A stretch of DNA of 64,000 bases from contig NZ_LPUX01000055.1 of assembly GCF_001651865.1 (NCBI RefSeq), positions 186,001-250,000 of the forward strand, in the 5' to 3' direction. The stretch is from Sinorhizobium glycinis. GTDB lineage: Bacteria > Pseudomonadota > Alphaproteobacteria > Rhizobiales > Rhizobiaceae. A program made the position numbers and the translations under genes. Positions 3,751 to 45,972 of this stretch are shown piece by piece. Numbering within the stretch: position 1 is the first letter of the stretch; each line of letters starts with the position of its first letter. The notes below the pieces were generated by a model. That model did not search any database. It was not told the DNA's origin and worked only from the letters and a program-made list of their open reading frames with translations.

Positions 3751-3896
3751 GGCAATTCATGTGCTACAGCGGCCTTATGGGCGTTGAAAACCGCACGGGC
3801 GTGGAGCGACACGCAGGAACATGCATCGCGATCATGTCGCAAACGCGTCAAAGGGCAGGATTTTTTGCAGGCGCGAAAAGGGCCGAGAGACCTCGG

Positions 3897-4187
3897 TCAG
3901 GAATTGAAGTGGCGGGGGCGGTTCAGACGCCGCAGGGAAACCTTGCTCGCCTGCTTTTCGTCACTCGTCGCTTCGGCCGGCGGCTTGCCGGGGGATAACT
4001 TTCGGCGCTCGCGCGCCTCCTTCCACACCAGGAAAAGCACGGCGAGAAAATATCCGACCTGTATGAGAACCGCACAAATCAGCGTCTGAACAGCCGTCGA
4101 GGCGAGCGAGCCGGTCAGGAAATAGGTTGCGATGGCAAACGCCGCCAGCGCGCCGAACATGCTCACAAGGAAGCGTGGTGCGAACAT
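3897..4187 (-). CDS. exoX: ExoX, small membrane inhibitor of exopolysaccharide synthesis
   Basis: ExoX (about 98 residues in S. meliloti, 96 here) lowers exopolysaccharide output post-transcriptionally in proportion to the exoX:exoY gene ratio, probably by acting on ExoY in the inner membrane. Two hydrophobic helices (about residues 4-25 and 33-54) are followed by a basic cytoplasmic tail rich in Lys/Arg. The start is the ATG at 4185-4187 after GGGGTAGG. It diverges from exoY across an unusually long AT-rich spacer, the arrangement conserved in sinorhizobia. Confidence 0.9.
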   Translation of the reverse strand: MFAPRFLVSMFGALAAFAIATYFLTGSLASTAVQTLICAVLIQVGYFLAVLFLVWKEARERRKLSPGKPPAEATSDEKQASKVSLRRLNRPRHFNS

Positions 4188-4963
4188 CGCCTACCCCGCT
4201 CTCTGATTTTCTGGTGGAACCGTCATCGAATTCCCAAGCCTCGCTCCTGTTTGAACTATATTAGCGGTCGCTTGTCTCTTCAACCTGCAAAATGCAACTT
4301 TGTCGCTACGGTACCTATTCCGAAAAGCTTTCCGTCATCTTTAAGTAGACGGAAAAATTCGATGAGGTCTGCCGTTAACGATACAATCACTGATATGTTC
4401 ACCTGTTTTAAGTGATTATTTTTTCGCGAAATCAGGGGGTCAAGATGACTCGCCGGCGCGGCCCCTAAATTGACAGGGGAAAATGCGAACTCGTTCTGAT
4501 TGCTGCTATTTTTGCCTTTGCCCGAACAATTTTTTGGATCAACTTTTGTTACAAGGTCCCGGGCCGGCGCCTCAGAATATGTGCGGCGCAATAAAATGAT
4601 GCAATGCAAAAAAGTCATACGATATTTACCGCTTGTAAAATTTCGCGAGCACATGGCGTCGTCGCGGCGAGTGAAAAATTGATGCGCCAAATACAATACT
4701 TTAGGCATCGCAAATAATGAACGCGCGCCGATGTTTGAATGTGACAATTCAGGGCTGATCTATTTTAGCTGTGACCTCCAACCGATATGCTTAAAATCCG
4801 GTAATAGTGTCACGTCGGCCCTGCCGAAAAATGCTTTGAGGCAGCGGGCTCCAGCGCCCGCCATCATTCCGCCTTCAAAAATCAAATTCTCACCATACAC
4901 TCGCGCTAGATGACGCCCCGTCCCACGGGACCGACAATCGCCAACCTAAATGGAGTCCCCTCT
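4188..4963. promoter_or_regulatory. exoX-exoY divergent control region
   Basis: A 776-base spacer clearly richer in A+T than the flanking genes, with many homopolymer A/T runs and no credible CDS. In S. meliloti the corresponding spacer carries the divergent exoX and exoY promoters and binding sites of the repressor MucR. AT-rich tracts here would suit that xenogeneic-silencer-like protein. I cannot place individual promoters with confidence. Confidence 0.6.
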
Positions 4964-5644
4964 ATGAAGTCCGCGACTCGCTCGGCCAGTACGGCTTTTT
5001 TTATCCCCCAGGAGACCGGTGCCATCCGGCCGATCGGCGGGATATCAAAGCGAAGCTTCGACGTTCTCATTGCCTTTCTGGCACTCGTCGCCCTCAGTCC
5101 GCTTTTCCTGCTCATCATGACGCTGGTTAAGCTCTCGGATGGGGGTAGCATTTTCTATGGACACCGCCGCATCGGCCACAACGGTCAGACCTTCAAGTGC
5201 CTCAAGTTCCGCACGATGATGGAAAACGGCGATCGGGTCCTGCAGGAATTCTTCAAGTCGAATCCTGCCGCCTACGAAGAATGGCGCACGACGCGCAAGC
5301 TGCAAGACGATCCGCGCGTCACCGTTGTCGGAAGCGTCCTTCGCAAGCTCAGCCTTGATGAGCTGCCCCAGCTCCTCAACATCATTCGTGGTGAAATGAG
5401 CATCGTCGGACCGCGTCCGGTGGTCGAAGACGAGCTGGAGCTCTATGATTCGGCCGCAGAGTTCTATCTGCGCTCCCGCCCCGGTCTGACCGGTCTTTGG
5501 CAGATCAGCGGCCGCAATGATGTATCCTATGCCGCCCGGGTGGCCTTCGATACGCATTATGTCCAGAACTGGTCGCTCCTTGCCGACCTTGTCATCGTCT
5601 TCAAGACGATCCCCGCCGTCTGCCTCTCCCGCGGCAGCTACTGA
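4964..5644 (+). CDS. exoY: ExoY, undecaprenyl-phosphate galactosyl-1-phosphate transferase
   Basis: Starts repeat-unit assembly by moving galactose-1-phosphate from UDP-galactose to the undecaprenyl carrier in the inner membrane, working with ExoF. At 226 residues it equals the S. meliloti protein. One membrane helix (about 33-54) is followed by the bacterial sugar-transferase domain with KFRTM near 81-85, KLSLDELPQL and MSIVGPRPV, all family signatures. The ATG at 4964 is chosen over the in-frame ATG at 4910 because it gives the family N-terminus MKSATRS and has GGAG upstream. First gene of exoY-exoF-exoQ. Confidence 0.95.
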   Translation: MKSATRSASTAFFIPQETGAIRPIGGISKRSFDVLIAFLALVALSPLFLLIMTLVKLSDGGSIFYGHRRIGHNGQTFKCLKFRTMMENGDRVLQEFFKSNPAAYEEWRTTRKLQDDPRVTVVGSVLRKLSLDELPQLLNIIRGEMSIVGPRPVVEDELELYDSAAEFYLRSRPGLTGLWQISGRNDVSYAARVAFDTHYVQNWSLLADLVIVFKTIPAVCLSRGSY

Positions 5645-5698
5645 AACCTTGGCGCCCGCTCGCGACCGAGTACGACGCCAAGCAACGGGAAATCCCAA

Positions 5699-6964
5699 AT
5701 GCAATTGATCAGAGTTCCAGGGGCGCCAACCGGCTCCCGCAAGCTTTTCCATTTCGCCCGCCTCGCACTCTGCGCGGCGCTAGTCGTGTCCGCTGCGACC
5801 GTCGCCCGGGCGGACGACTATCGCCTCGGCGTCATGGACAAATTGCGGATTCGCGTTGCCGAATGGCAGACGGCCGAGGGCGCGGTCCGGGATTGGTCGG
5901 CCGTCAGCGGCGAATATACGGTCGGAGCATCGGGCAGCGTCTCGCTGCCTTTTGTCGGCGATCTGCCCGCCTCGGGCCGGACGACGACGGAGGTCGCCGA
6001 AGAGATCGGCATCAAGATGCAGAAGCTGTTCGGTCTGCGCGACCGGCCGTCTGCCTCGGTCGAAATGGCACAGTACCGGCCGGTCTACCTCTATGGCGAG
6101 GTGGAGACACCTGGCGAGTACCCCTACGCTCCCAATCTGACGGTCCTCAAGGCAATCAGCCTCAGCGGCGGGCTGCGCCGGGGCCCGAGCGGCCAGCGTT
6201 TCGCCCGCGACTATATCGCTGCGAATGGCGATTCGTCCGTCCAGGTTGCCGAGCGCAACCGGCTGCTCATTCGGCGTGCCCGTCTGCAGGCGGAGATAGC
6301 CAAGCATGACAAGATCACGCTGCCCGAGGAACTCAAGAACGCCGCCGGCGTTGACAAGCTGCTCGAAAGCGAGACGGCGCTGATGGTATCGCGCGACAAG
6401 CGACAGGACCGCCAGCTCGACGCCCTGGCAGATCTCAAGTCCCTGCTGCAAAGCGAGATCGACTCGCTGGCGAAGAAATCCGAGACGCAACAGCGCCAGC
6501 TCGAACTCGCCACCGAGGATCTGGACAAGGTCGACAGCCTCGCCGAGAAGGGCCTGGCGCTCAGCCAGCGCAAGCTCTCCCTCGAGCAGCGGGTGGCCGA
6601 CGTGCAGTCGCAGCTTCTCGACATCGATACGACATCGCTCAAGGCCAAGCAGGACGTGAGCAAGGCGACGCAGGACGAATCCAACCTGCGCAACGACTGG
6701 GATGCGCAACTCGCCCAGGAACTGCAGAACACCGAGGCCGAACTCGACACGCTGACGCTGAAGCTCGGCACCAGCCGGGATCTGATGACCGAGGCACTCA
6801 TGCAATCGGCAGACGCGGCGCAACTGGAGGAGCAAGCCGAAAGCATCACCTATTCGATCATTCGCGAACAGGACGGAAAGTCGACGGAGATCGCGGCGAC
6901 CGAGACCACGCCGGTGCTTCCCGGTGACGTGATCAAGGTCAATGCTGCAGTGGCGATGCGGTGA
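5699..6964 (+). CDS. exoF: ExoF, periplasmic polysaccharide export/initiation protein
   Basis: Required with ExoY for the first galactosyl transfer; belongs to the Wza-type export family. Signal peptide to about residue 38 (ending TVARA), polysaccharide export domain (about 38-130) and a soluble ligand-binding beta-grasp segment around YLYGEVETPGEYPYAPNLT. Residues about 195-385 are a long, charged, Leu-rich region predicted to form coiled coils. A hydrophobic stretch is lacking at the C-terminus, so it is periplasmic rather than inner-membrane. Start ATG 5699 with GGGAA upstream; 54 bases after exoY and 4 bases before exoQ, so one operon. Confidence 0.92.
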   Translation: MQLIRVPGAPTGSRKLFHFARLALCAALVVSAATVARADDYRLGVMDKLRIRVAEWQTAEGAVRDWSAVSGEYTVGASGSVSLPFVGDLPASGRTTTEVAEEIGIKMQKLFGLRDRPSASVEMAQYRPVYLYGEVETPGEYPYAPNLTVLKAISLSGGLRRGPSGQRFARDYIAANGDSSVQVAERNRLLIRRARLQAEIAKHDKITLPEELKNAAGVDKLLESETALMVSRDKRQDRQLDALADLKSLLQSEIDSLAKKSETQQRQLELATEDLDKVDSLAEKGLALSQRKLSLEQRVADVQSQLLDIDTTSLKAKQDVSKATQDESNLRNDWDAQLAQELQNTEAELDTLTLKLGTSRDLMTEALMQSADAAQLEEQAESITYSIIREQDGKSTEIAATETTPVLPGDVIKVNAAVAMR

Positions 6965-34916: not shown

Positions 34917-35885
34917 TCATGCGGGTTGCCGGCCGTTGCGCGACAGGCGGATGATTCCCTTCTGAAGAAGGATGAAGGCAAAGAGCAGCAGGCCGATCAG
35001 GATCTTGGTCCACCAGCTCGAAAGCGTACCGTCGAAGGTGATGTAGGTCTGGATCAGGCCCTGGATGAGGATGCCGACCAGCGTGCCGGCAACGAAGCCG
35101 GAGCCGCCGGTCAGGAGCGTACCGCCGATGACGACCGCTGTGATCGCATCGAGCTCGACGCCGACGGCTGCAAGAGAATAGCCGGCCGAGGTATAGAGCG
35201 AGAATACGATGCCGGAGAGTCCTGCCAGCAGCCCCGACAGTGCGTAGATCCTGACGGTCGTGCTTGCGACCGGCACGCCCACGAGTTTGGCTGTCGCCGT
35301 GCCGCCGCCAAGCGCGTAGACATTCGTTCCGAAACGGGTCCGGTGCGCGATAAGAATGCCGATGGCGAAGACGAGCAGCATAAGACCGCCGATGAGAGTG
35401 ATCCGCCCGCCGCCGGGAAGCTTGAAATAGAGACTTTTGAGCGTCGCGTAGAACGGATGCTTGATCGGGATGGAATCGATCGACAGCACGAAGGCCATGC
35501 CGCGGGCGAGGAACATGCCGGCAAGGGTGACGATGAAGGCCGGCATTTCGAGATGGTGGATGATCGCTCCCATGACCGCTCCGAAGAGCGTCGTGATGGC
35601 GAGAACCAGAGCGAAAGCGGCAAGCGGGTGGATGCCGGTCTGTTCGAGCACGACGGCGAGGAAGACGCCGGTAAAGGCGATCACCGCGCCGACCGAAAGG
35701 TCGATGCCGCCGGAAAGAATGACGAAGGTCATGCCGACCGCGGCAATGCCGAGGAAGGCGTTGTCGGTGAGCAGATTGCCGATCACCCGTGTCGACAGCA
35801 TGTTCGGGTACTGCGCGACGCAGAGCGCGTAGCTCAGAAGAAAGATCAGGATTGTTGCCGTAAGCGGAAGATATTTCTGCTTCAT
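34917..35885 (-). CDS. yjfF: CUT2 sugar ABC permease, YjfF type
   Basis: 322 residues, about nine helices, with GMTFVILSGGIDLSVGAVIAF and VIGGTLLTGGSGFVAGTLVG as family marks. Together with the preceding permease it forms the YtfT/YjfF pair known from the E. coli galactofuranose importer. Start ATG 35885 overlaps the stop of the previous gene (ATGA), so the permeases are coupled. The actual substrate here is inferred only by family. Confidence 0.85.
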   Translation of the reverse strand: MKQKYLPLTATILIFLLSYALCVAQYPNMLSTRVIGNLLTDNAFLGIAAVGMTFVILSGGIDLSVGAVIAFTGVFLAVVLEQTGIHPLAAFALVLAITTLFGAVMGAIIHHLEMPAFIVTLAGMFLARGMAFVLSIDSIPIKHPFYATLKSLYFKLPGGGRITLIGGLMLLVFAIGILIAHRTRFGTNVYALGGGTATAKLVGVPVASTTVRIYALSGLLAGLSGIVFSLYTSAGYSLAAVGVELDAITAVVIGGTLLTGGSGFVAGTLVGILIQGLIQTYITFDGTLSSWWTKILIGLLLFAFILLQKGIIRLSRNGRQPA

Positions 35886-36907
35886 TTTGCTTCTCGCTCG
35901 GTCGGTTTGCCGGCTACGCGCGGAATGCTCACGAATGCGAAGGCGGCGCGGAACCTCGGCGACTGGAGCACCAGGATGAAGACGATGATCGCCGCCTTGA
36001 TGATCAGGTTGAACTCCGGCGGAAAGCCCGAAAGGAGAATGCCGGTGTTGATCGCCTGGATGATGATGGCGCCGAGCACCGAGGCGGCGATGCTGAAGCG
36101 TCCGCCGAGAAGCGATGTGCCGCCGACCACGACCGCGAGGATTGCATCGAGTTCCAGCCAGAGCCCGGCATTGTTGGCGTCTGCCCCCTTGATGTCGGCG
36201 GCGGCGATGACCCCGGCGATTGCCGCGCACAGGCCGGAAAGGACATAAGCAGCGATCAGCAGCACTGGCGTGAAGACGCCCGACAGTGTGCTCGCCTCCC
36301 TGTTGACGCCCACCGCCTCGACCAGCATCCCGAGCGCCGTCTGCCGGACGACGAGCGCGACCAGCACCCCGAACACCAGCCAGATGACGACCGGCATCGG
36401 CAGGCCCGCGAACGAGCCGCTGCCGATGAAGATGAGACCGGGATCGTTGAAGGTGAGGATGGCGCCCTCGGTGATGAGCTGTGCGATGCCGCGGCCGGCG
36501 ACCATCAGCACGAGCGTGGCGATGATCGGCTGGATGTCGAGGACGGCGACCAGGATGCCGTTCCAGATGCCGCAGAGAATGCCCACGGCGAGGGTGATAA
36601 GGAGCGTCTCAGCAAGCGAATGGCCGGAGGTAATCAGGGAAGCAGACACCGCTCCACAGATCGCCATGACGGCACCGACCGAAAGATCGATGCCCTTGGT
36701 GGCGATCACGACCGTCATGCCGATCGCCAGCAGCACGACAGGCGCGCCGCGGTTCAGGATATCGACCAGGCTGCCGTAAAGGCGACCGTTCTGGATTTGA
36801 AGGTTGAGGAAGCCGGGAAAAATAATTGAAATCGCAGCAATAATGATCGTCAACGCGATCAATTGCGGCAGCAACCTGCCAAGATAGGTCCGCACGGTCG
36901 AAGTCAC
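35882..36907 (-). CDS. ytfT: CUT2 sugar ABC permease, YtfT type
   Basis: 341 residues, about nine to ten helices, with GMTVVIATKGIDLSVGAVMAI and AVVVGGTSLLGGRFSIAASVLGA. The start is a GTG at 36907 that overlaps the stop of the ATPase gene (GTGA). Partner of the downstream YjfF-type permease. Confidence 0.85.
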   Translation of the reverse strand: MTSTVRTYLGRLLPQLIALTIIIAAISIIFPGFLNLQIQNGRLYGSLVDILNRGAPVVLLAIGMTVVIATKGIDLSVGAVMAICGAVSASLITSGHSLAETLLITLAVGILCGIWNGILVAVLDIQPIIATLVLMVAGRGIAQLITEGAILTFNDPGLIFIGSGSFAGLPMPVVIWLVFGVLVALVVRQTALGMLVEAVGVNREASTLSGVFTPVLLIAAYVLSGLCAAIAGVIAAADIKGADANNAGLWLELDAILAVVVGGTSLLGGRFSIAASVLGAIIIQAINTGILLSGFPPEFNLIIKAAIIVFILVLQSPRFRAAFAFVSIPRVAGKPTEREAK

Positions 36908-38421
36908 GATGCCTCCCGCTCGTTGGCCGCGGCAATCGCTTCGACGATCTGATGCGCGGTAATACGGTCTCCGCCGAGTTCGGCGACGTGGGTTCGATCG
37001 CGCAGCACGACGACCCGCGTGCTATAGGCGACCAGCTCCTCGATTTCGGATGAGATGACGATCAGCGACAGGCCCTTCTCGCGCAGGCTTTCGATCAATC
37101 TGACAATCTCGGCATGGGCGCCGACATCGATGCCGCGCGTCGGCTCGTCGAGGATCAGGAATTCGGGTTCGGTCGCAAGCCAGCGGGCGAGGATCGCCTT
37201 CTGCTGGTTGCCCCCGGAAAGCAGCTTGATCGGCTTCTCGCGGTCGGGGGTTCTGATATCGAGCGCCCGGATGTACTGGTCCGCCAGCCGGTTCTGCTCG
37301 GCGCGCGAGATCGGCCGCGTCCAGCCGCGCCGTGCCTGCAAGGCGAGCACGATGTTTTCGCGCACCGACAGATCGCCGACGATACCGTCCGTCTTGCGGT
37401 CCTCAGGACAAAAGCCGAACTTCTGGCGGATGGCCGCCCGCGGCGACGACAGATCGACGGTCTGGCCGTCGATCTCCGCCGTACCGCTGTCGGCGCGATG
37501 GGCGCCGAAAAGCACGTCGGCTGTTTCCGTGCGTCCGGAACCGAGCAGGCCGGCGATGCCGACGACCTCGCCGGCCCGGACGTCGAGATCGAAGGGATTG
37601 ATGCGGCCGCGGCGGCCGTAATTCCTGAAGCGGTAGCGCAGCCGGCCCTCGGCGACTTCCGTGCGCGCCGAATGGATTTCAGCCGCGAGCTCGCGCCCGA
37701 TCATCATGGCGATCAGGTCGCGCCGGCTGAGGTCGGAGGTGTCGCGCGTGCCGACGAGCTGGCCGTTGCGCAGCACGGTGATGCGGTCGGAAATCTCGTA
37801 GACCTGCTCGAGGAAGTGGGTGATGAAGATGATGCCGAGCCCGCGTGCCTTGAGACGCCGGACGATGCGGAAGAGCATGGCGACCTCGTGCGCGTCGAGG
37901 CTCGCCGTCGGTTCGTCGAGGATCAGCACCTTGCCGGAAAGATCGACGGCACGGGCGATCGCCACGACCTGCTGGATCGCCACCGAAAAGCTCGCGAGGT
38001 CGCGCGTCACATCGAGATCAAGCTCGTATTCCGCGAGCAGTTCGCGGGCCTTGCGGTTCATGGTCCGCGTATCGACCATGCCGAAGCGGCGCGGCTGACG
38101 TCCAAGGAAGAGGTTCTCGGCGACCGTCAGGTTCGGCAGGAGGTTCACCTCCTGGTAGACGGTCCCGATGCCCAGCCTCTGCGCATCAAAGGTGTCGCGC
38201 GGGTCGACTTCGGCGCCGTCGAGCAAGATGCTGCCGCCGTCCCGCCGATAGGCGCCGGTCAGGCATTTGATGAGCGTGGATTTGCCGGCGCCGTTCTCCC
38301 CGAGCAGCGCGTGGACCTCGCCGCGCCTGAGGTGAAAATCGACCTTGTCGAGGGCCTTCGTTCCGGGAAAGCCCTTCTCGATCCGGACAGCCGAAAGGAT
38401 ATTGTCGCTGCTGGTCTGCAT
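36904..38421 (-). CDS. ytfR: CUT2 sugar ABC ATPase with two nucleotide-binding domains, YtfR type
   Basis: 505 residues. The first domain has Walker A GENGAGKST, SVAIQQVVAIARA in place of a canonical signature, and LILDEPTASLD. The second has the degenerate P-loop GLLGSGRTE, signature LSGGNQQKAIL and LILDEPTRGIDVG. This double layout is normal for RbsA/YtfR proteins. The start at 38421 gives the family N-terminus; the ribosome site is weak (AGAGA 8-13 bases away). Separated from the binding-protein gene by a strong hairpin. Confidence 0.88.
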   Translation of the reverse strand: MQTSSDNILSAVRIEKGFPGTKALDKVDFHLRRGEVHALLGENGAGKSTLIKCLTGAYRRDGGSILLDGAEVDPRDTFDAQRLGIGTVYQEVNLLPNLTVAENLFLGRQPRRFGMVDTRTMNRKARELLAEYELDLDVTRDLASFSVAIQQVVAIARAVDLSGKVLILDEPTASLDAHEVAMLFRIVRRLKARGLGIIFITHFLEQVYEISDRITVLRNGQLVGTRDTSDLSRRDLIAMMIGRELAAEIHSARTEVAEGRLRYRFRNYGRRGRINPFDLDVRAGEVVGIAGLLGSGRTETADVLFGAHRADSGTAEIDGQTVDLSSPRAAIRQKFGFCPEDRKTDGIVGDLSVRENIVLALQARRGWTRPISRAEQNRLADQYIRALDIRTPDREKPIKLLSGGNQQKAILARWLATEPEFLILDEPTRGIDVGAHAEIVRLIESLREKGLSLIVISSEIEELVAYSTRVVVLRDRTHVAELGGDRITAHQIVEAIAAANEREAS

Positions 38422-38536
38422 TGAAACTGTCTCTGCACTGGAAGGCCGCGCACACGCCGTTTGCGACGGATGCGCGCCGTTCCTCGCCAAGGATCAGGCG
38501 GTCTTCCCGCAGCAACCGACGCTGCGGAACATAGAC

Positions 38537-38563
38537 GGCCCGCACAGGTGTATCGTGCGGGCC
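38537..38563 (-). promoter_or_regulatory. Intra-operon hairpin between ytfQ-like and ytfR-like genes
   Basis: GGCCCGCAC (38537-38545) pairs perfectly with GTGCGGGCC (38555-38563) around a 9-base loop, 11 bases after the binding-protein stop. Such stems commonly protect the binding-protein message so it is made in excess over the ATPase and permeases. Confidence 0.6.
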
Positions 38564-38573
38564 GCAAGCGAGA

Positions 38574-39536
38574 TCAGTAACCGAGGCCCTTCTTTTCCTC
38601 GTAGACCTTCATCGGATCGTCGGCCTGGGTATAAAGCTTCGATTCCGTCTGGATCCACTTTTCGGGCTCCTTGCCGTCCTTCAGGTAGGTGGCAAGCGCA
38701 TCGAAGGCCGGGCCGGCCATGTTCGGCGTCAGTTCGACAGTGGCGTTGGCTTCGCCGGCGGCCATGGCCTGGAAGATGTCCGGAACGGCGTCGATCGAGA
38801 CGACGAGGATGTCCTTGCCCGGCTTCAGGCCGGCTTCCTTGATCGCCTGGATGGCGCCGACGGCCATGTCGTCGTTATGAGCGTAGAGCGCGCAGATGTT
38901 CTTGCCGCCGTCTTCGGCCTTCAGGAAGCTTTCCATGACTTCCTTGCCCTTCGTGCGGGTGAAGTCGCCGGTCTGGCTGCGGACGATCTTCAGATTGTCC
39001 TTGCCGGCGAGCGCCGCTTCGAAGCCCTTCTTGCGGTCGATGGCGGGCGACGAGCCCGTCGTGCCCTGAAGCTCGACGACGTTGCAGGGCTTGCCCGCCA
39101 CCGTATCGACGAGCCACTTGCCGGCGACATTGCCTTCATGCACGAGGTCGGAGGTCACGGCCGTCAGGTAGAGCTCCTTCGGCGCATCGACGGTACGATC
39201 GAGCAGGATCACCGGGATTTCGGCATCCTTGGCTTCCTGCAGCACTTCGTCCCAGCCGGTCGCGACGACCGGTGCGAGCAGGATGGCGTTGACGCCCTGG
39301 GCGATGAAGGAGCGGATCGCCTTGATCTGGTTTTCCTGCTTCTGCTGCGCATCGGCGAATTTCAAGTCAATGCCACGCTGTTCGGCCTGCTGCTTTGTCA
39401 GCGTCGTCTCGGCGGCGCGCCAGCCGGACTCCGAGCCGATCTGGGAAAAGCCGACGACGAGGTCCGCGGCCGAAGCGGTGCCAAAAGTGCAGGCAGCAAG
39501 GATCGTTGCACTGGCAAGTGCCTTCACGAATTTCAT
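38574..39536 (-). CDS. ytfQ: Periplasmic sugar-binding protein, YtfQ type
   Basis: 320 residues with a signal peptide of about 23 residues (ending GTASA), then VVGFSQIGSESGWRAAETTL, highly typical of the YtfQ galactofuranose-binding protein, and later LLDRTVDAPKELY and the sugar-contact YAHNDDMAVGAIQA. Start ATG 39536 with GGGAGGA upstream. First gene of the operon ytfQ-ytfR-ytfT-yjfF-gntR. The ligand is probably a furanose or related aldose, inferred from family only. Confidence 0.88.
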   Translation of the reverse strand: MKFVKALASATILAACTFGTASAADLVVGFSQIGSESGWRAAETTLTKQQAEQRGIDLKFADAQQKQENQIKAIRSFIAQGVNAILLAPVVATGWDEVLQEAKDAEIPVILLDRTVDAPKELYLTAVTSDLVHEGNVAGKWLVDTVAGKPCNVVELQGTTGSSPAIDRKKGFEAALAGKDNLKIVRSQTGDFTRTKGKEVMESFLKAEDGGKNICALYAHNDDMAVGAIQAIKEAGLKPGKDILVVSIDAVPDIFQAMAAGEANATVELTPNMAGPAFDALATYLKDGKEPEKWIQTESKLYTQADDPMKVYEEKKGLGY

Positions 39537-39682
39537 GATTTCCTCCCAAAGAAAGCTGCTCTCCATGCAGCTGTCGAGAAAAAATCATATAATATTACTT
39601 TTGTAAACTCACTTTTGATGTCGCCCGCCTCAATCCACTAGAATTCATCCAAAAATTGTAATGATCCGGCGCGCGTGTGCCA

Positions 39683-40729
39683 TCACAGCGTAGCGAGCGT
39701 GCGGTTCGGTAACGCTCCCTGGTAGAGTTCCTGCAATCGTACCTTGTCCTCCAGTGCGGCGATGACATCCTCGCTGAAATCAACACCGTGAATCGCTGCG
39801 ATCTCGGGGAAACCCCCGGGAGTGAAGACGTTCGCTTCCAGTATGCGGTCGCCGACGATGTCGAGACCGACCAGGAACATGCCGTCCTCGATCAATTTGG
39901 GGCGCAATTTATCCGCGATGGCGAGGATTTCTGGTGTGACGGTCGCCGGTTCGGCCGTACCGCTGGCATGCAGGTTCGAGCGAACATCGCCCTTCGCCGG
40001 CACGCGCCGAAAAGCGGCATAGACGCCGTCGCGTTCGAGCGTACGCCCGTTCATCAGGAAAAGCCGGATGTCGCCACCGACCGCCTCGGGAAGATAGCTC
40101 TGAGCGATCAGATATCCCGTCTCGCTCGCCGCCTCGAAGATCTGGTTGAGATTGGCTTCGTCCTTGGACTGGATCTTGAAGACATTCTTGCCGCCGGACC
40201 CCTGCAGCGGTTTCAGGATGACACCGTCCGGGTGGTCTTCGATGAAGCTGCGGATTTCCTCGATGCTCCTGGAGATCATCGTCGTTGGCCGGACGATCTC
40301 GGGGAAGCCCTGGAAATAGAGTTTGTTTTGCGCCAGCGCCAGGCCATCAGGATCGTTGACCACGATGACGCCCCGGGCTGCGGCCAGCCGTCCGAAATTG
40401 GTCCCGACATAGACTGCCCAGGGGCGCCGATCGGCGTCCTCGGCGGGGTCGTTTCTGAGGAACAGGACCTGCACCTCGCTTATGTCCATGCCGGTGATCT
40501 TCGCCTGGTCGCCCTTGAGACTGTTGAGCAATGTCTCCGGCTTCTTCGGTTTGGGGCCTTTTAACGTGGTGGCGCGGATGAGCAAGCTGTCGTCCGGCCG
40601 AAGCACGAAATCCCCGGGTGTGACATAGCAAACCTCATGACCGCGGGAGAGTGCCGCCAGCGCGAGCGACGTCGTCGTATAGAACGTGGCCTCGCCCTCG
40701 ATGGAGTTGACGAGAAAGGCGATGCGCAT
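39683..40729 (-). CDS. ATP-grasp ligase of the glutathione synthetase (GshB) type
   Basis: 348 residues. The N-terminal preATP-grasp domain (MRIAFLVNSIEGEATFYTT) and the ATP-grasp domain with ILKPLQGSGGKNVFKI as nucleotide loop, plus ILEANVFTPGG as the Mg-binding Asn/Glu segment. It resembles GshB, but its genetic setting is not glutathione synthesis: it is last in an operon with a DUF1704 protein (9-base gap) and an N-formylglutamate amidohydrolase. It more likely joins an amino acid or amine to a peptide or small acid; the substrate is unknown. Start ATG 40729 after AGGAG. Confidence 0.82.
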   Translation of the reverse strand: MRIAFLVNSIEGEATFYTTTSLALAALSRGHEVCYVTPGDFVLRPDDSLLIRATTLKGPKPKKPETLLNSLKGDQAKITGMDISEVQVLFLRNDPAEDADRRPWAVYVGTNFGRLAAARGVIVVNDPDGLALAQNKLYFQGFPEIVRPTTMISRSIEEIRSFIEDHPDGVILKPLQGSGGKNVFKIQSKDEANLNQIFEAASETGYLIAQSYLPEAVGGDIRLFLMNGRTLERDGVYAAFRRVPAKGDVRSNLHASGTAEPATVTPEILAIADKLRPKLIEDGMFLVGLDIVGDRILEANVFTPGGFPEIAAIHGVDFSEDVIAALEDKVRLQELYQGALPNRTLATL

Positions 40730-40738
40730 CTGCTGCTC

Positions 40739-42637
40739 CTAGTTGTCCAACAGGTCGAGCGGAGTCATCCCCGATCGGGCCCTCTCAAGACGCATCGGTG
40801 CTTTCGGGTGGTCGAGGAACATGGGGCGCACCGCAGGCCCGCCGAGCAGGCCGCGGGCACTCAGTTCCTGCATGACACCGAAATGCGAGGCCGCGATCTT
40901 TCCCATCCAGAAGGGTTCGAGCGCGCCGCCATTGGCCAGATGGTCGAGCAGTTGCAGGAGCCCCCGCAAATAGATGGCATCCTTGACAAGGCCACCGCCA
41001 CGATAGACGCGCAGGACCACGTTGAAGGCATCCGCCTGCGGCAATCCGTGCTCGTGGGCGAGAAGTCGATAGGCTTCCGGGAGGGACGCGCCGTCGAGCA
41101 TGGCGGCGCAGGCGACCACGCGCGCGGCGATCAGGCGAAGCCTCTCGCTCGTCATGCCGCCGGCCAGGAATTCCGCAAAGACCGCCAGCCCCTCCTGCAT
41201 GCCCTCGTATCCGGCGAGGCCTGAGCGAAAGAGGCGCAGGCCCTGGGCCGAGCCGTTGAAATAGGTCAAGAGGTGAACGCCGATCTCGTGGCTGAGGATC
41301 GCTTCGACACGATCGACCGGCATGGTCGTGCTTAGGGCGATCAACAATCTATGGCCCGACACCAGCAAGCCCGGGGGAAGATCGTCCCGCACTTCAACGC
41401 GCGCCGCGAAGTCGCTGCAACGGCGCGCATATTCGGCGATCATCTCACGCGCCCGTCTTTCGACGAAGTCGCAATCCGCGCATTCGACGGGCGCCGGGGA
41501 GGAACCGCCGGCTTTGCCTGTGGTTTTGTTGATGCGGGCGAGGACATCCTTTGCCGCCCGCAGGAGGCCGGCCTCTATCGGGCCGTAAAGGGCGCGGCCG
41601 AACTCGATGAACTTTGCCGTTTCCCGCGCCGAAAGGATCGATAGCTGCAGATCGAGCTCCTGCTGCTTCTCGCGGTAAAGCTGGTAGAGCACCGGATCCT
41701 CGAGGTGCTCGAAGGGGATCGAGAAGAGCTTTCGCTTCGCCGCCTCCACCTGCAGCGTCAAAGGCCGGTAGAGAAACCGAGGCGCACGCGCGTAGTCGGA
41801 CGCGGCAAACTCGTTCCAGGCGGCTTCCGCGTTGATCGGCGTGACGGCGAGCAGGAAATCGAAGGCGGACGCGATCTCATCGATGCTGCGGTCGGTGCGC
41901 ACGACGGCGTCGATAAATGCCTTTCGCCCGAGCGCGCGATGCGTCGAGATGGTGAGGCCCTTCGTCGACTTGGCAAAAGCAGCGAAAGCGTGGAGGCCGG
42001 CATCGAAGATGCTGGCGATCAACCGCTCGCGGAGCTCCGGAAAGATCTTGCCCGAATCGCGCTGACGGTAGACCGGTGCAAAGCGCACGCGCATCAGCGG
42101 GAACGGCACCTCGAGCGCCTCGTCCGCAGTTCTCCGGCCCTCCGGCCATTCATGGAATTCGACTCGCGGCGTGCGGAACTTGACCTGGATCGCCTCGATG
42201 GCAGCGATGAAGGCTTGTGCGGCCGCACGGATGGGGCCCTTTTTTCCCGTCGTGACTTCGATTGTGAAAGGCGGAAGAAAAGGTGCCTTGTCGGTGAGCA
42301 ACTCGTCTCGGGCGAGTTCGCCCATTTCGAGCACCATGAAGGCTCCGAAGCGGCGATCGAGCAGCGCTCCGACGGCCGACACGATGGGGGTGGCGGTGGC
42401 CGCGTCCGGGGCGATCAGATAGGAAGCATTTGCCTGCGTGATCTCGCGTGCGACAGGAGCGCTGTCTTGACCGGCGACATGGATGCACAGAAAGGGCAAG
42501 GCCCTGTCGACATGGAGGCGCCCCCCGTTCGGCAGTTCCTTCCGTACCGCCTTGCCCGCTTCAATCGCGGCGACGACGTCGGTTAGCCAATCCGGATCGT
42601 CGGGAACGGCAGAGGTACATGCGCTTGCCGGTTTCAT
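40739..42637 (-). CDS. DUF1704 / QEGLA-motif metallopeptidase-like protein
   Basis: 632 residues, cytoplasmic. The C-terminal half has the zinc-peptidase-like HEIGVH (within AILSHEIGVHLLTYFNGSAQG) followed by YEGMQEGLAVFAE, the QEGLA motif that names the bacterial family. The family is also annotated as flavohemoglobin-expression modulating. Eukaryotic relatives of DUF1704 are tubulin tyrosine carboxypeptidases (MATCAP), so a carboxypeptidase-like activity is plausible. Start ATG 42637 overlaps the stop of the amidohydrolase gene (ATGA). Confidence 0.85.
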   Translation of the reverse strand: MKPASACTSAVPDDPDWLTDVVAAIEAGKAVRKELPNGGRLHVDRALPFLCIHVAGQDSAPVAREITQANASYLIAPDAATATPIVSAVGALLDRRFGAFMVLEMGELARDELLTDKAPFLPPFTIEVTTGKKGPIRAAAQAFIAAIEAIQVKFRTPRVEFHEWPEGRRTADEALEVPFPLMRVRFAPVYRQRDSGKIFPELRERLIASIFDAGLHAFAAFAKSTKGLTISTHRALGRKAFIDAVVRTDRSIDEIASAFDFLLAVTPINAEAAWNEFAASDYARAPRFLYRPLTLQVEAAKRKLFSIPFEHLEDPVLYQLYREKQQELDLQLSILSARETAKFIEFGRALYGPIEAGLLRAAKDVLARINKTTGKAGGSSPAPVECADCDFVERRAREMIAEYARRCSDFAARVEVRDDLPPGLLVSGHRLLIALSTTMPVDRVEAILSHEIGVHLLTYFNGSAQGLRLFRSGLAGYEGMQEGLAVFAEFLAGGMTSERLRLIAARVVACAAMLDGASLPEAYRLLAHEHGLPQADAFNVVLRVYRGGGLVKDAIYLRGLLQLLDHLANGGALEPFWMGKIAASHFGVMQELSARGLLGGPAVRPMFLDHPKAPMRLERARSGMTPLDLLDN

Positions 42638-43467
42638 CGGCCTGACTCCAACGCATCGACGAGCACGGGCAGCGTCGAGGCAACCAGCTGTCTGAGCGCG
42701 CGGAGCGTTTCGACGAAGGGTTCTCCGGTCCATTCCTCCATGAAGATCTTCTTGAATTCGACCGCGATCGCGCAGCCCGTTTCCGGAAAATGCTCGTGAA
42801 TGAAGCGCGCCTGGTAGCCCCGGCCCTGGAAGGCGATGTTCTCCCGCACATCGAGACGGCCGCCGGGAAATTCGAAGGACTGTACCGCTTCCACGAAGCG
42901 TTCGACCACCGGCGCCCATTTCCTGCGGTCCATGGAGAACGTGCCGATATTGACGTCCGGCGCTTGCGCCGCCATCGTCGGCTCCGCCTTGGGGCCGGAT
43001 CGACGGTGGTTGTAACTGTGCACGTCGAGGACGACGAAGCGTCCGTGGCAGCGCTCGATGCCTCGGAGGTACGATTGCAGCATCGCATAATATTCGTCGT
43101 GCATCGCGAGCGACGCCGCGGTGATCTCGCCGGGCAGTTCGCCCGTCCAGACGTTGAGACCCCAAGCCTGTTCCGGCCGCAGATAGATGGCCCCGTCGCG
43201 CGGCCGGTTGATATCGACCTCGAAACGCGACCGGTGAACGACGATCCGGTTCGGCACATCGCGGATGATGAACTCGGTAAAGGGATCCTCCTCACGCCGG
43301 CGCTCTTCCTCGGTAAGCCCGCAGAGGCGATTCACGGAGTCGCGCATCGCGTGGCCATTGTGAATGGCGGTTGCGACGACGGGCGACTGGCCGCGGTGCT
43401 GCGTCCACCATTCGCCTGCGGCAGGATGCGTCAAACCGATGACTTCCCGAGCTATGTTCATGTCCAT
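42634..43467 (-). CDS. N-formylglutamate amidohydrolase family protein
   Basis: 277 residues of the N-formylglutamate deformylase/FGase family: an early HNGHAMRDSV metal-binding loop, VHRSRFEVDINRPRDG and FVVLDVHSYNHRR, which together supply the His/Glu/Asp zinc ligands. Classic members hydrolyse N-formyl-glutamate in histidine catabolism, but no hut genes are present. First gene of the three-gene operon with DUF1704 and ATP-grasp proteins, coupled by an ATGA overlap. Start at 43467 or the second Met two codons later. Confidence 0.85.
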   Translation of the reverse strand: MDMNIAREVIGLTHPAAGEWWTQHRGQSPVVATAIHNGHAMRDSVNRLCGLTEEERRREEDPFTEFIIRDVPNRIVVHRSRFEVDINRPRDGAIYLRPEQAWGLNVWTGELPGEITAASLAMHDEYYAMLQSYLRGIERCHGRFVVLDVHSYNHRRSGPKAEPTMAAQAPDVNIGTFSMDRRKWAPVVERFVEAVQSFEFPGGRLDVRENIAFQGRGYQARFIHEHFPETGCAIAVEFKKIFMEEWTGEPFVETLRALRQLVASTLPVLVDALESGR

Positions 43468-43579: not shown

Positions 43580-43792
43580 TCACGCACGATTGATCGTGGG
43601 CAAGAAGAGCACTACTTCCCGCTGCCGCTCGGGGCTGAGCGTTTCCACATAGGTCTTCCAGAATGCCTCGGCCTCGTCAGGCTCCGGCTCCCAGTTCCTG
43701 ATCGAGGTCTCGTTATCGTCGATCACCACGCGACGGTGGCCGCCGAGACGCAGATACTCGTCTGCAAGTCTGCGCGCGTTCATCTGTTCCAT
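43580..43792 (-). CDS. 70-residue hypothetical protein under a stress promoter
   Basis: Small soluble, acidic, Trp-containing protein (MEQMNARRLADEYLRLGG through LFLPTINRA). No family recognised. The frame is open to a TTG at 43933, but the ATG at 43792 is chosen: GGAG lies nine bases upstream and an exact stress-type promoter (43820-43844) would start transcription just before it and inside the longer frame. 112 bases downstream lies the start of the amidohydrolase operon on the same strand. Confidence 0.65.
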   Translation of the reverse strand: MEQMNARRLADEYLRLGGHRRVVIDDNETSIRNWEPEPDEAEAFWKTYVETLSPERQREVVLFLPTINRA

Positions 43793-43819
43793 GGCTTCAC
43801 TCCAGGTCTTTCCCGAGAG

Positions 43820-43844
43820 AACGCCAGCGCCGTCGGAACGTTCC
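43820..43844 (-). promoter_or_regulatory. EcfG/RpoE2-type promoter for the 70-aa gene
   Basis: Minus strand GGAAC (43840-43844), 16 bases, CGTT (43820-43823), 28 bases before the ATG at 43792. Exact match to the general-stress sigma pattern. Confidence 0.7.
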
Positions 43845-43959
43845 GGGCCTTTGGACACTCCCGGGACATAGCTATGAACTTTATACGCTTTTTGCTCTGC
43901 GGATGCGAGTTTCGATGCGACCTCCCGCAGCAAAGGCTGGGACGGGGGCGCAATCGGTT

Positions 43960-45972
43960 CTATCCCGCGTTCTGGTCAGCGGGCGCCGATTTCACTGTCG
44001 AACTCGTCCGTCTGCGCACCTGGTGACGAGGGGCAATCTTCGCGCGCACCGCCTTCAATGGCCGGGCGGCCTCGTCGGAAAGCGCCTCACGGACTGCCCC
44101 GGCGATCACGGACACGACAAAATCTGCCTGCAGCTCTTCGACCAGAGCGATATTTGGCGCACCTTCCTCCTGCCAGAGCGCGATGCCGATGCGCGCCGTC
44201 GGCGCAAGGCGCTTCAGGCGGCGCACGATGAATTTGGCGTGTCGCAAGGATTCTTGATCGAGAAAGTTCACGACAATCGCATTACGCCCGGCGATGGGAA
44301 GCGTCCGGATAGCGCCCGGCTTCAAGTCCTTGTAACTCGCGGAGGCCACGTCCGCCCCTTGGACTCCGATGACCTGGGCCAGCATCGACGCCGTCACATC
44401 GTCGAGTTCGCCGCGCCCGCCGATGCAGAGCACGGATTTTCCCTCGCCCAGAGGCAGGTCATAGTCGTCGGTATGGTCGTCTCCATTGTCGGCTTCTTCG
44501 CTCGCGTCTTCCTCTTCCTCTTCCTCCTCTTCCTCTTCGCCGGCGATTTCCTCGAGGTTGGCGACGAGCGTACGCGCGCTCTGGGCAATCTGGGCCACCT
44601 GCGGGTCGGTCAGCGCGCCACGGGCGCGGTCGTGTTCCGCAAGAAGCAGGGCGGGGATTGCGACCGTGTCATAGAACTCGACGAGGTATTTCTCCTCGAG
44701 CATTTCTTCGGCGTTGTCGGTCGCCTCATCCGGATCGCCGGCCAGCAATCGTTGGTAGAGCCGCTCCTTGGGATCGAGCACCGGTTCGTTGCCCAGCAGG
44801 ATTTCAAGAAACTCGAACTGCGGGACATGGCGGCCGAGCACCACGAGGCAAACCGTCAGCGGCGTCGACAGCACCAGTCCGACCGGCCCCCAGAGCCAGG
44901 CCCAGAAAATCGCCGAGACGATGATCGCAAGCGGCGAAAGGCCAGTCCGCGAGCCGTAGAGCCAGGGCTCGACGACATTGTTGCTGAGGAGTTCCAGGAC
45001 AATGAACAGGGCCGCCGTCCAGACCAGCAGGCTCCAACCCGGAGCCGCGGCGAAGGCGAGAAACAGCGGAAGGACCGCGGCGATGACGGGGCCGATATAA
45101 GGGACGAAGCGCAGCACGATCGCGAGCATTCCCCAAAGGATGGCATTGGGTATCCCGAGCAGCCAGAGGCCGATGGCAAGCGGTATCCCGTAGGTGATGT
45201 TCACCACCAACTGCATGAGCAGATACTGACCCACCCGTGCGCCGGCGTCCTGCAGGGCCTCGGTCGTGCGGTGCAGGTCGCCATAGCCGACCAGCCGGAT
45301 GAAGCGGTCGCGCAGGTCCTCCCTTTCGAAAAGCATGAAGATGACGACGACAATGACGAGGCCGGTCGTGGCCAAAGGCCCGAGCAGGGGATCGATGATA
45401 TTCCTCAGCGTTTCGATCGGGCGTTCAGGAGAAAATATCTCCACGAGAAGCGGCTTCTGCTCGGGATCCGGGGCGGGCGACAGGCGCGTTTCAGGCTTGG
45501 GGCGGCTGATTTCCGTGCTGATCCGTTCCACCACGCGGCTGAGGCGCTCGAAGATCTGGCTTTCCGAGCCCGCCTCCTTCAGAACCCTGATCTTTTCGAT
45601 GATGTTGTATTGGTAGGTGGGAAGGTTCTGCGCCACTTCGCTGACCTGCACGGCCAGGATGACACTGAATGCGGAGAGAAACAGAAAGGCTGTCGCAACC
45701 GTACCGATCACTGCGACCGAGCGCGGCAAACCCGCCCTCCTCAGCCTCGAGACTACGGGGGCCAGCGCGAAGGTGAGCAGGATGGCGATTGCCAGGGGGA
45801 GGAACACTTCGCTGGCGAAATAGAGAACAGCGACAGTCGCCGCCGTGGCGGCAAGCGTCGGAAGTCGGGAAGGCTGGGCGATCGCTGCGGATCCCGACGC
45901 GAGCGCGATCTGCATCGATTGGCTGGCGGCCTTGGCCTGGCCCTGGTCCGCTCTCCTTGAAAACCTCAGCAT
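43960..45972 (-). CDS. AI-2E family transporter with acidic linker and extra C-terminal domain
   Basis: 670 residues, about 300 more than a usual AI-2E (PerM/TqsA) permease. Residues about 40-385 hold the eight-helix transporter core (PLAIAILLTFALAPVVSRL; YIGPVIAAVLP). Then a soluble helical stretch, a glutamate-rich linker (a run of ten Glu near residue 482) and a C-terminal alpha/beta domain of about 140 residues starting KSVLCIGGRGELDD, which looks Rossmann- or receiver-like. Start ATG 45972 after GGGGA. Substrate unknown; AI-2 is only the family name. Confidence 0.85.
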   Translation of the reverse strand: MLRFSRRADQGQAKAASQSMQIALASGSAAIAQPSRLPTLAATAATVAVLYFASEVFLPLAIAILLTFALAPVVSRLRRAGLPRSVAVIGTVATAFLFLSAFSVILAVQVSEVAQNLPTYQYNIIEKIRVLKEAGSESQIFERLSRVVERISTEISRPKPETRLSPAPDPEQKPLLVEIFSPERPIETLRNIIDPLLGPLATTGLVIVVVIFMLFEREDLRDRFIRLVGYGDLHRTTEALQDAGARVGQYLLMQLVVNITYGIPLAIGLWLLGIPNAILWGMLAIVLRFVPYIGPVIAAVLPLFLAFAAAPGWSLLVWTAALFIVLELLSNNVVEPWLYGSRTGLSPLAIIVSAIFWAWLWGPVGLVLSTPLTVCLVVLGRHVPQFEFLEILLGNEPVLDPKERLYQRLLAGDPDEATDNAEEMLEEKYLVEFYDTVAIPALLLAEHDRARGALTDPQVAQIAQSARTLVANLEEIAGEEEEEEEEEEDASEEADNGDDHTDDYDLPLGEGKSVLCIGGRGELDDVTASMLAQVIGVQGADVASASYKDLKPGAIRTLPIAGRNAIVVNFLDQESLRHAKFIVRRLKRLAPTARIGIALWQEEGAPNIALVEELQADFVVSVIAGAVREALSDEAARPLKAVRAKIAPRHQVRRRTSSTVKSAPADQNAG

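Follow-up and report, generated by a model that had tools for sequence, protein, structure and literature searches.

A conserved amidohydrolase, MATCAP-type peptidase and ligase cassette of rhizobia with a possible role in small-amide turnover

We analysed a window of Sinorhizobium glycinis DNA (the whole stretch of 64,000 nt, positions 186,001 to 250,000 of contig NZ_LPUX01000055.1) in which three adjoining genes, here called FGA, QEGLA and GSHL, encode a predicted metallo-amidohydrolase, a predicted metallo-carboxypeptidase and a predicted ATP-grasp ligase. Sequence comparison and structure models indicate that the three enzymes have these folds with intact active sites, that QEGLA carries an extra domain whose site has been lost, that the unit is conserved, and that the ligase is set apart from glutathione synthetase (GshB) in score and in residues. 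We tentatively prefer the reading that this cassette is a self-contained cytosolic unit that makes and unmakes a small amide, in the manner of the N-acetylaspartylglutamate (NAAG) cycle. Behind it there is probably a small amide, present in several bacterial phyla, that has yet to be described. That animal MATCAP enzymes edit tubulin is a recent finding, and here a conserved operon brings a MATCAP peptidase together with a ligase and an amidohydrolase in the genetically easy S. meliloti (on pSymB), so that further roles of the family are directly testable.

Table 1. The three cassette genes and the domains of QEGLA (window positions)
Feature	Description	Positions	Strand	Scores
FGA	N-formylglutamate-amidohydrolase-like (PF05013, MH-clan) metallo-amidohydrolase, 277 aa	42634..43467	-	
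QEGLA	two-domain protein, 632 aa	40739..42637	-	PF08014 302.2 bits; TIGR02421 357 (cut-off 338.65); model pLDDT 88.4, pTM 0.84
QEGLA N-terminal domain	residues ~15-237, degenerate FGase-like, catalytically dead by prediction	41927..42595	-	
QEGLA C-terminal domain	residues ~260-630, MATCAP/DUF1704 metallopeptidase; HEIGVH 450-455, QEG 481-483	40739..41860	-	
GSHL	GshB-like ATP-grasp ligase, 348 aa, NCBIfam PRK12458 subfamily	39683..40729	-	NF009110 486.9 bits (cut-off 408)

The trio runs in the order FGA, QEGLA, GSHL on the minus strand from 43467 to 39683, with a 4-base overlap between FGA and QEGLA and a 9-base gap between QEGLA and GSHL. This layout had been described in an original prediction made from the letters alone, and it holds; the families hold on Pfam and NCBIfam scores (PF05013, 82.6 bits with a cut-off of 28.9; PF08014 MATCAP, 302.2 with a gathering score of 27; GSH-S_ATP, 170.7 with a cut-off of 23). 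An ATG at 42637 gives QEGLA its 632 residues and the ATGA overlap; the TTG start of the open reading frame (ORF) list gives a longer frame of 808 aa. No signal peptide was seen by eye at the N-terminus of FGA, QEGLA or GSHL, and the three should therefore be cytosolic. Scans for promoters, terminators and repeats in this region gave nothing useful. The claim that no hut or glutathione genes are nearby holds for the surroundings of the trio: the contig does carry hutG, adjoining hutH, but at a distance of about 128 kb, and gshB is on another contig.

Conservation of the unit was assessed in named genomes, for which the best 80 of at least 574 QEGLA relatives were taken as loci. The three genes stand together on one strand in 79 of the 80, the exception (L185) being rearranged, and the 4-base overlap is kept in 73 of those 79. 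Two of the 79 have broken frames (L176, L178) and two are cut by contig ends (L141, L186). Pairwise protein distances of the trio members correlate at 0.87 to 0.93 across the 79 loci, and the co-occurrence of the trio is more than chance. Most of the 80 loci are Hyphomicrobiales by name because they were chosen by similarity; also named among them are Planctomycetota, Gemmatimonadota, delta/epsilon-type metagenome-assembled genomes (MAGs), Pseudoxanthomonas, Sphingopyxis and Brevundimonas, and those nearest to the window are Sinorhizobium/Ensifer. Among 120 genomes of relatives, PF08014 was found in 33, namely the genome of the window, 31 from its genus and one further member of the family. 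The trio is in order in the 10 genomes fetched from those 31 and in G049 and G418, and G414 has a fused form. Plasmid records yielded 116 QEGLA matches, 79 of them in Sinorhizobium. When the 80 loci were pooled with 40 fetched ones, the largest protein cluster after the trio covered 28 of the 120 loci (an ABC-transporter ATPase by its look) and the next covered 18 (an antisense frame). We found no paper on the trio in the open-licence PMC literature. Among related systems, Iyer et al. reportedly described in 2009 gene neighbourhoods of ATP-grasp amidoligases and peptidases as predicted peptide ligase/peptidase systems. Two of the named loci are unusual in themselves. On a plasmid of Rhizobium sp. 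RCAM05350 (L178, 7140-11651) two or more of the cassette genes have interrupted frames, by decay or sequencing error, and a Gemmatimonadota MAG (L179, 3118-5272) has two tandem cassette ligases after QEGLA.

The HEIGVH and QEGLA motifs reported earlier are present in QEGLA as H450, E451 and H455 and as E482, and these four residues are invariant in the aligned rows (19 of 19 and 43 of 43). Catalytic residues are likewise invariant across the aligned rows. The protein matches the fold of the solved human MATCAP enzyme and is predicted to be a MATCAP-type metallo-carboxypeptidase that would remove a C-terminal residue. Its first ~230 residues are predicted from the model to form a catalytically dead FGA-like domain, which is a new observation: this domain and the FGA-QEGLA fusions described below were both absent from the original prediction. 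The dead domain suggests an association of FGA with QEGLA. The animal MATCAP/TMCP enzymes (PF08014) are tubulin-tail carboxypeptidases (PMC10499314). QEGLA differs from them in sequence (20% identity), in its extra dead FGase domain and in its operon with a ligase and an amidohydrolase, and a tubulin tail is not expected in the cassette bacteria. In Pseudomonas aeruginosa, fhp is regulated by PA3697 (PMC8070244), which would be a QEGLA protein from its NCBI family name. A QEGLA gene of Photobacterium damselae changed 27.51-fold in a low-salinity transcriptome, with the direction given by the title of the paper (PMC10308900). No report on the activity of bacterial MATCAP/DUF1704 proteins turned up in the open-licence PMC literature.

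FGA belongs to the PF05013 FGase family on its Pfam gathering score and on its fold. In contrast to HutG and other PF05013 relatives, it is the partner of a dead homologous domain, does not lie in a hut operon and scores 26.9 bits against the HutG model TIGR02017 (cut-off 278.75); the hutH-like neighbour, recognised by eye, belongs to another FGase gene (L104). The identification of FGA as HutG was rejected on this score and this position. A search of PDB sequences with an FGA profile gave nothing at E<=0.01.

GSHL stands nearest to GshB, a small-molecule ligase (phmmer against E. coli GshB, 1gsa, E 6.7e-37). The two have the same domain layout and ATP-grasp residues and share 33 columns that are at least 90% conserved in each of the two groups. 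GSHL nevertheless falls in a separate score group and carries Gly at 305 in place of Thr. It scores below both GshB equivalog cut-offs (TIGR01380, 197.4 against 299.05; NF003573, 206.6 against 272) and passes only the subfamily model NF009110, and a true gshB (407.7 bits) lies elsewhere in the genome of the window. The RimK-like motif RSNxHxGG was rejected as a mark of GSHL because alphaproteobacterial GshB carries it too.

We extended the search to a sample of 398 genomes from across the phylum, in which PF08014 was found in 47, a GSHL-group ligase in 14 and FGA above 150 bits in 13. The GSHL group scores 409-559 bits and the other listed matches at most 237; below the FGA group come a single value of 56.7 and others no higher than 35. 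QEGLA adjoins the ligase in 13 of the 14 ligase genomes and at 15 of 16 ligase places, the remaining place starting at base 48 of its contig. The cassette is present in 11 of the 13 FGA genomes. Contig ends matter in two genomes: FGA lies near one in G298, and in G286, which is 65% complete, the contig ends inside QEGLA. No GSHL-group ligase was found in the remaining 34 PF08014 genomes. Among the 16 loci fetched with a short form of QEGLA (L086-L100 and L193), none has an adjoining FGA or GSHL-group ligase, so these short proteins are probably a stand-alone branch; L086-L100 include 14 loci from 13 of those 34 genomes and one paralogue in G479, and in L088 a weak ligase match lies at a distance of 5 kb. 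At six of the 12 cassette loci fetched from outside rhizobia FGA and QEGLA are fused, and such fusions adjoin the ligase in other Pseudomonadota; L074 and L081 are compact trios. After the cassette of L081 stands a second ligase/protease set (3765-6777: a putative zinc protease PF05618, a 7TM inactive transglutaminase and ATPgrasp_ST), and a set similar to it follows the cassette in L084 (2688-5679), from a related genome.

An HdfR-type LysR regulator gene is found within 1.4 kb of the cassette in eight of these 12 non-rhizobial loci (L063, L074, L077, L078, L079, L081, L082, L083), as well as in the Vibrio and Photobacterium records L218 and L219. In L079, L218 and L219 the gene maoP (DUF413) separates the regulator from the cassette; in L076 it adjoins the ligase. 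Six regulators were scanned, one of them from the Vibrio plasmid (L218), and HdfR was the best match of each at 172.8-224.5 bits, all below the cut-off of 240. HdfR directly induces gltBD in E. coli (PMC2984483). Photobacterium sp. DA100 (L219) has the regulator, maoP, the ligase and the fused protein in a row.

The original prediction made its proposal, a system that adds and removes a residue, depend on conserved gene order, conserved zinc ligands and a ligase other than ordinary glutathione synthetase. All three were found, and a make-and-unmake unit of a ligase and two hydrolases is therefore a reasonable reading; nothing was found that points to a protein target, which the proposal had also allowed. 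In the cycle that we tentatively favour, GSHL would activate a carboxylate as an acyl phosphate and then join it to an amine. FGA, binding a free carboxylate, would cleave the amide bond of an N-acylated amino acid, with Glu or Asp as the likeliest residue, and QEGLA would take off the C-terminal residue. The dead front domain of QEGLA may dock active FGA or substrate, and the two hydrolases would then work as one unit, as in the fused versions. We infer that all three would act on one molecule, small and centred on Glu or Asp; the direction of the reactions and the identity of the substrate are equally putative. A carboxylate-activating ligase, an N-deacylase and a carboxypeptidase, kept across phyla without a partner gene, best fit the synthesis and recycling of one small amide of an acidic amino acid. 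The closest parallel in function is the mammalian NAAG cycle (PMC8836185).

Several observations weigh against this cycle. The functions of FGA, QEGLA and GSHL are all predictions. A lone FGA is found in G254 (on a 3 kb contig without QEGLA) and as a second copy in G154, and the cassette of G415 (L075) offers no FGA domain other than a degenerate one. Outside rhizobia the trio holds together less tightly: in L083 and L084 the fetched stretch holds ligase and QEGLA without FGA, in L082 and L085 FGA lies 1.4-2 kb upstream, and a thirteenth locus, L080, is a long QEGLA alone. On the plasmid of Vibrio sp. HDW18 (L218, 3965-5956) the fused FGA-QEGLA stands by the LysR gene and maoP with no ligase adjoining. 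The HdfR link was not found in L176-L186, and in rhizobial loci a close HdfR match was seen only in L162, more than 5 kb away. The MATCAP fold differs from that of GCPII, the carboxypeptidase of the mammalian NAAG cycle, so the likeness to that cycle is a functional analogy only; aspartoacylase is its MH-clan deacylase, and its enzymes share no operon. What the cassette does have in one unit is the same kinds of enzyme, namely an ATP-grasp ligase, a metallo-carboxypeptidase and an MH-clan deacylase, for which the mammalian counterparts are RIMKL synthetase, GCPII and aspartoacylase. The strongest result against the cycle comes from glutathione genes: six of the 14 ligase-bearing genomes have a GCS2-type gshA but, besides GSHL, nothing that passes the GshB cut-off, which favours a glutathione-like role there.

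In these six genomes GSHL may thus make a glutathione-like product. It could join gamma-Glu-Cys to something other than glycine, or make glutathione in genomes that lack gshB, with the hydrolases recycling the product; the conserved columns shared with GshB agree with this. We consider such a thiol system improbable overall. The other eight of the 14 genomes have a true GshB over cut-off besides GSHL. S. meliloti 2011 has the cassette on pSymB, with a ligase 84% identical to GSHL, and its chromosomal gshB mutant (SMc00419) lacks GSH as validated by HPLC (PMC7063052), a result that is silent on other products or on genes that the assay conditions did not express. A GCS2 match was lacking in four of 12 named cassette genomes, these four being MAGs of unknown completeness, and PF04262 was found in none of the eight of the 12 that were searched. 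An ordinary glutathione synthetase was rejected for rhizobia on the sub-cut-off scores, the true gshB elsewhere and the GSH-free mutant, and is retained as an alternative for the six genomes that have no second GshB-like gene over cut-off.

Alternatively, the cassette might tail proteins: GSHL would add a residue to the C-terminus of a protein or peptide and QEGLA would remove it, just as tubulin is modified by TTL and MATCAP. GSHL matches the RimK domain at 57.3 bits, and RimK is an enzyme that adds Glu to ribosomal protein S6; QEGLA, for its part, has the MATCAP fold and ligands of enzymes that act on tubulin tails. The comparison with tubulin-tyrosine ligase made in the original prediction proved weak, however, as no PF03133 match was obtained for four cassette ligases even at E<=10 (HMMER filters drop most weak matches) and GshB is the nearest relative of GSHL. 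In the 120 loci no target gene is conserved next to the cassette, and FGA is left without a clear task. We regard protein tailing as rather unlikely. A variant drawn by analogy with the tubulin tyrosination cycle, in which the ligase adds and the peptidase removes a terminal residue on a peptide or protein, the dead domain unites the hydrolases and bacterial MATCAPs are ancestral erasers of a pre-tubulin tail, seems more doubtful still.

Finally, the three genes could serve one-way biosynthesis, with the ligase linking an amino acid to a protecting acid or a carrier, from which the finished product would be freed by the two hydrolases. The ATP-grasp enzyme LysX and the peptidase LysK act in this way with the carrier LysW. 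Such protect-and-release logic suits a ligase, a metallo-carboxypeptidase and an N-deacylase, and the frequent overlap of the FGA and QEGLA genes is consistent with it. Neither a carrier-protein gene nor a further biosynthetic enzyme is conserved nearby in the 120 loci, and we judge this route unlikely.

Anti-phage defence or a phage origin was rejected, as searches of PADLOC and PHROG with four window proteins came back empty at E<=0.01; QEGLA was not found in phage records. Upstream of the trio lies a 117-aa ORF (43580-43933, minus strand) without a Pfam or NCBIfam match, with 69% identity over 99 residues in S. meliloti. This ORF and the sugar ABC transporter downstream were rejected as parts of the cassette, since among 41 records both stand near the trio in same-genus loci only; the ORF was not looked for in the 80 named loci, and the binding protein of the transporter clusters in eight of the 120 loci. 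The transporter (34917-39566, minus strand) is of the galactofuranose type, and its binding protein scores above the cut-off of the YtfQ model (593.1 against 510 bits). Further upstream, an AI-2E family permease (43960-45972, minus strand) has a long acidic stretch and a weak B12-binding_2 match at residues 403-473 (22 bits, cut-off 23).

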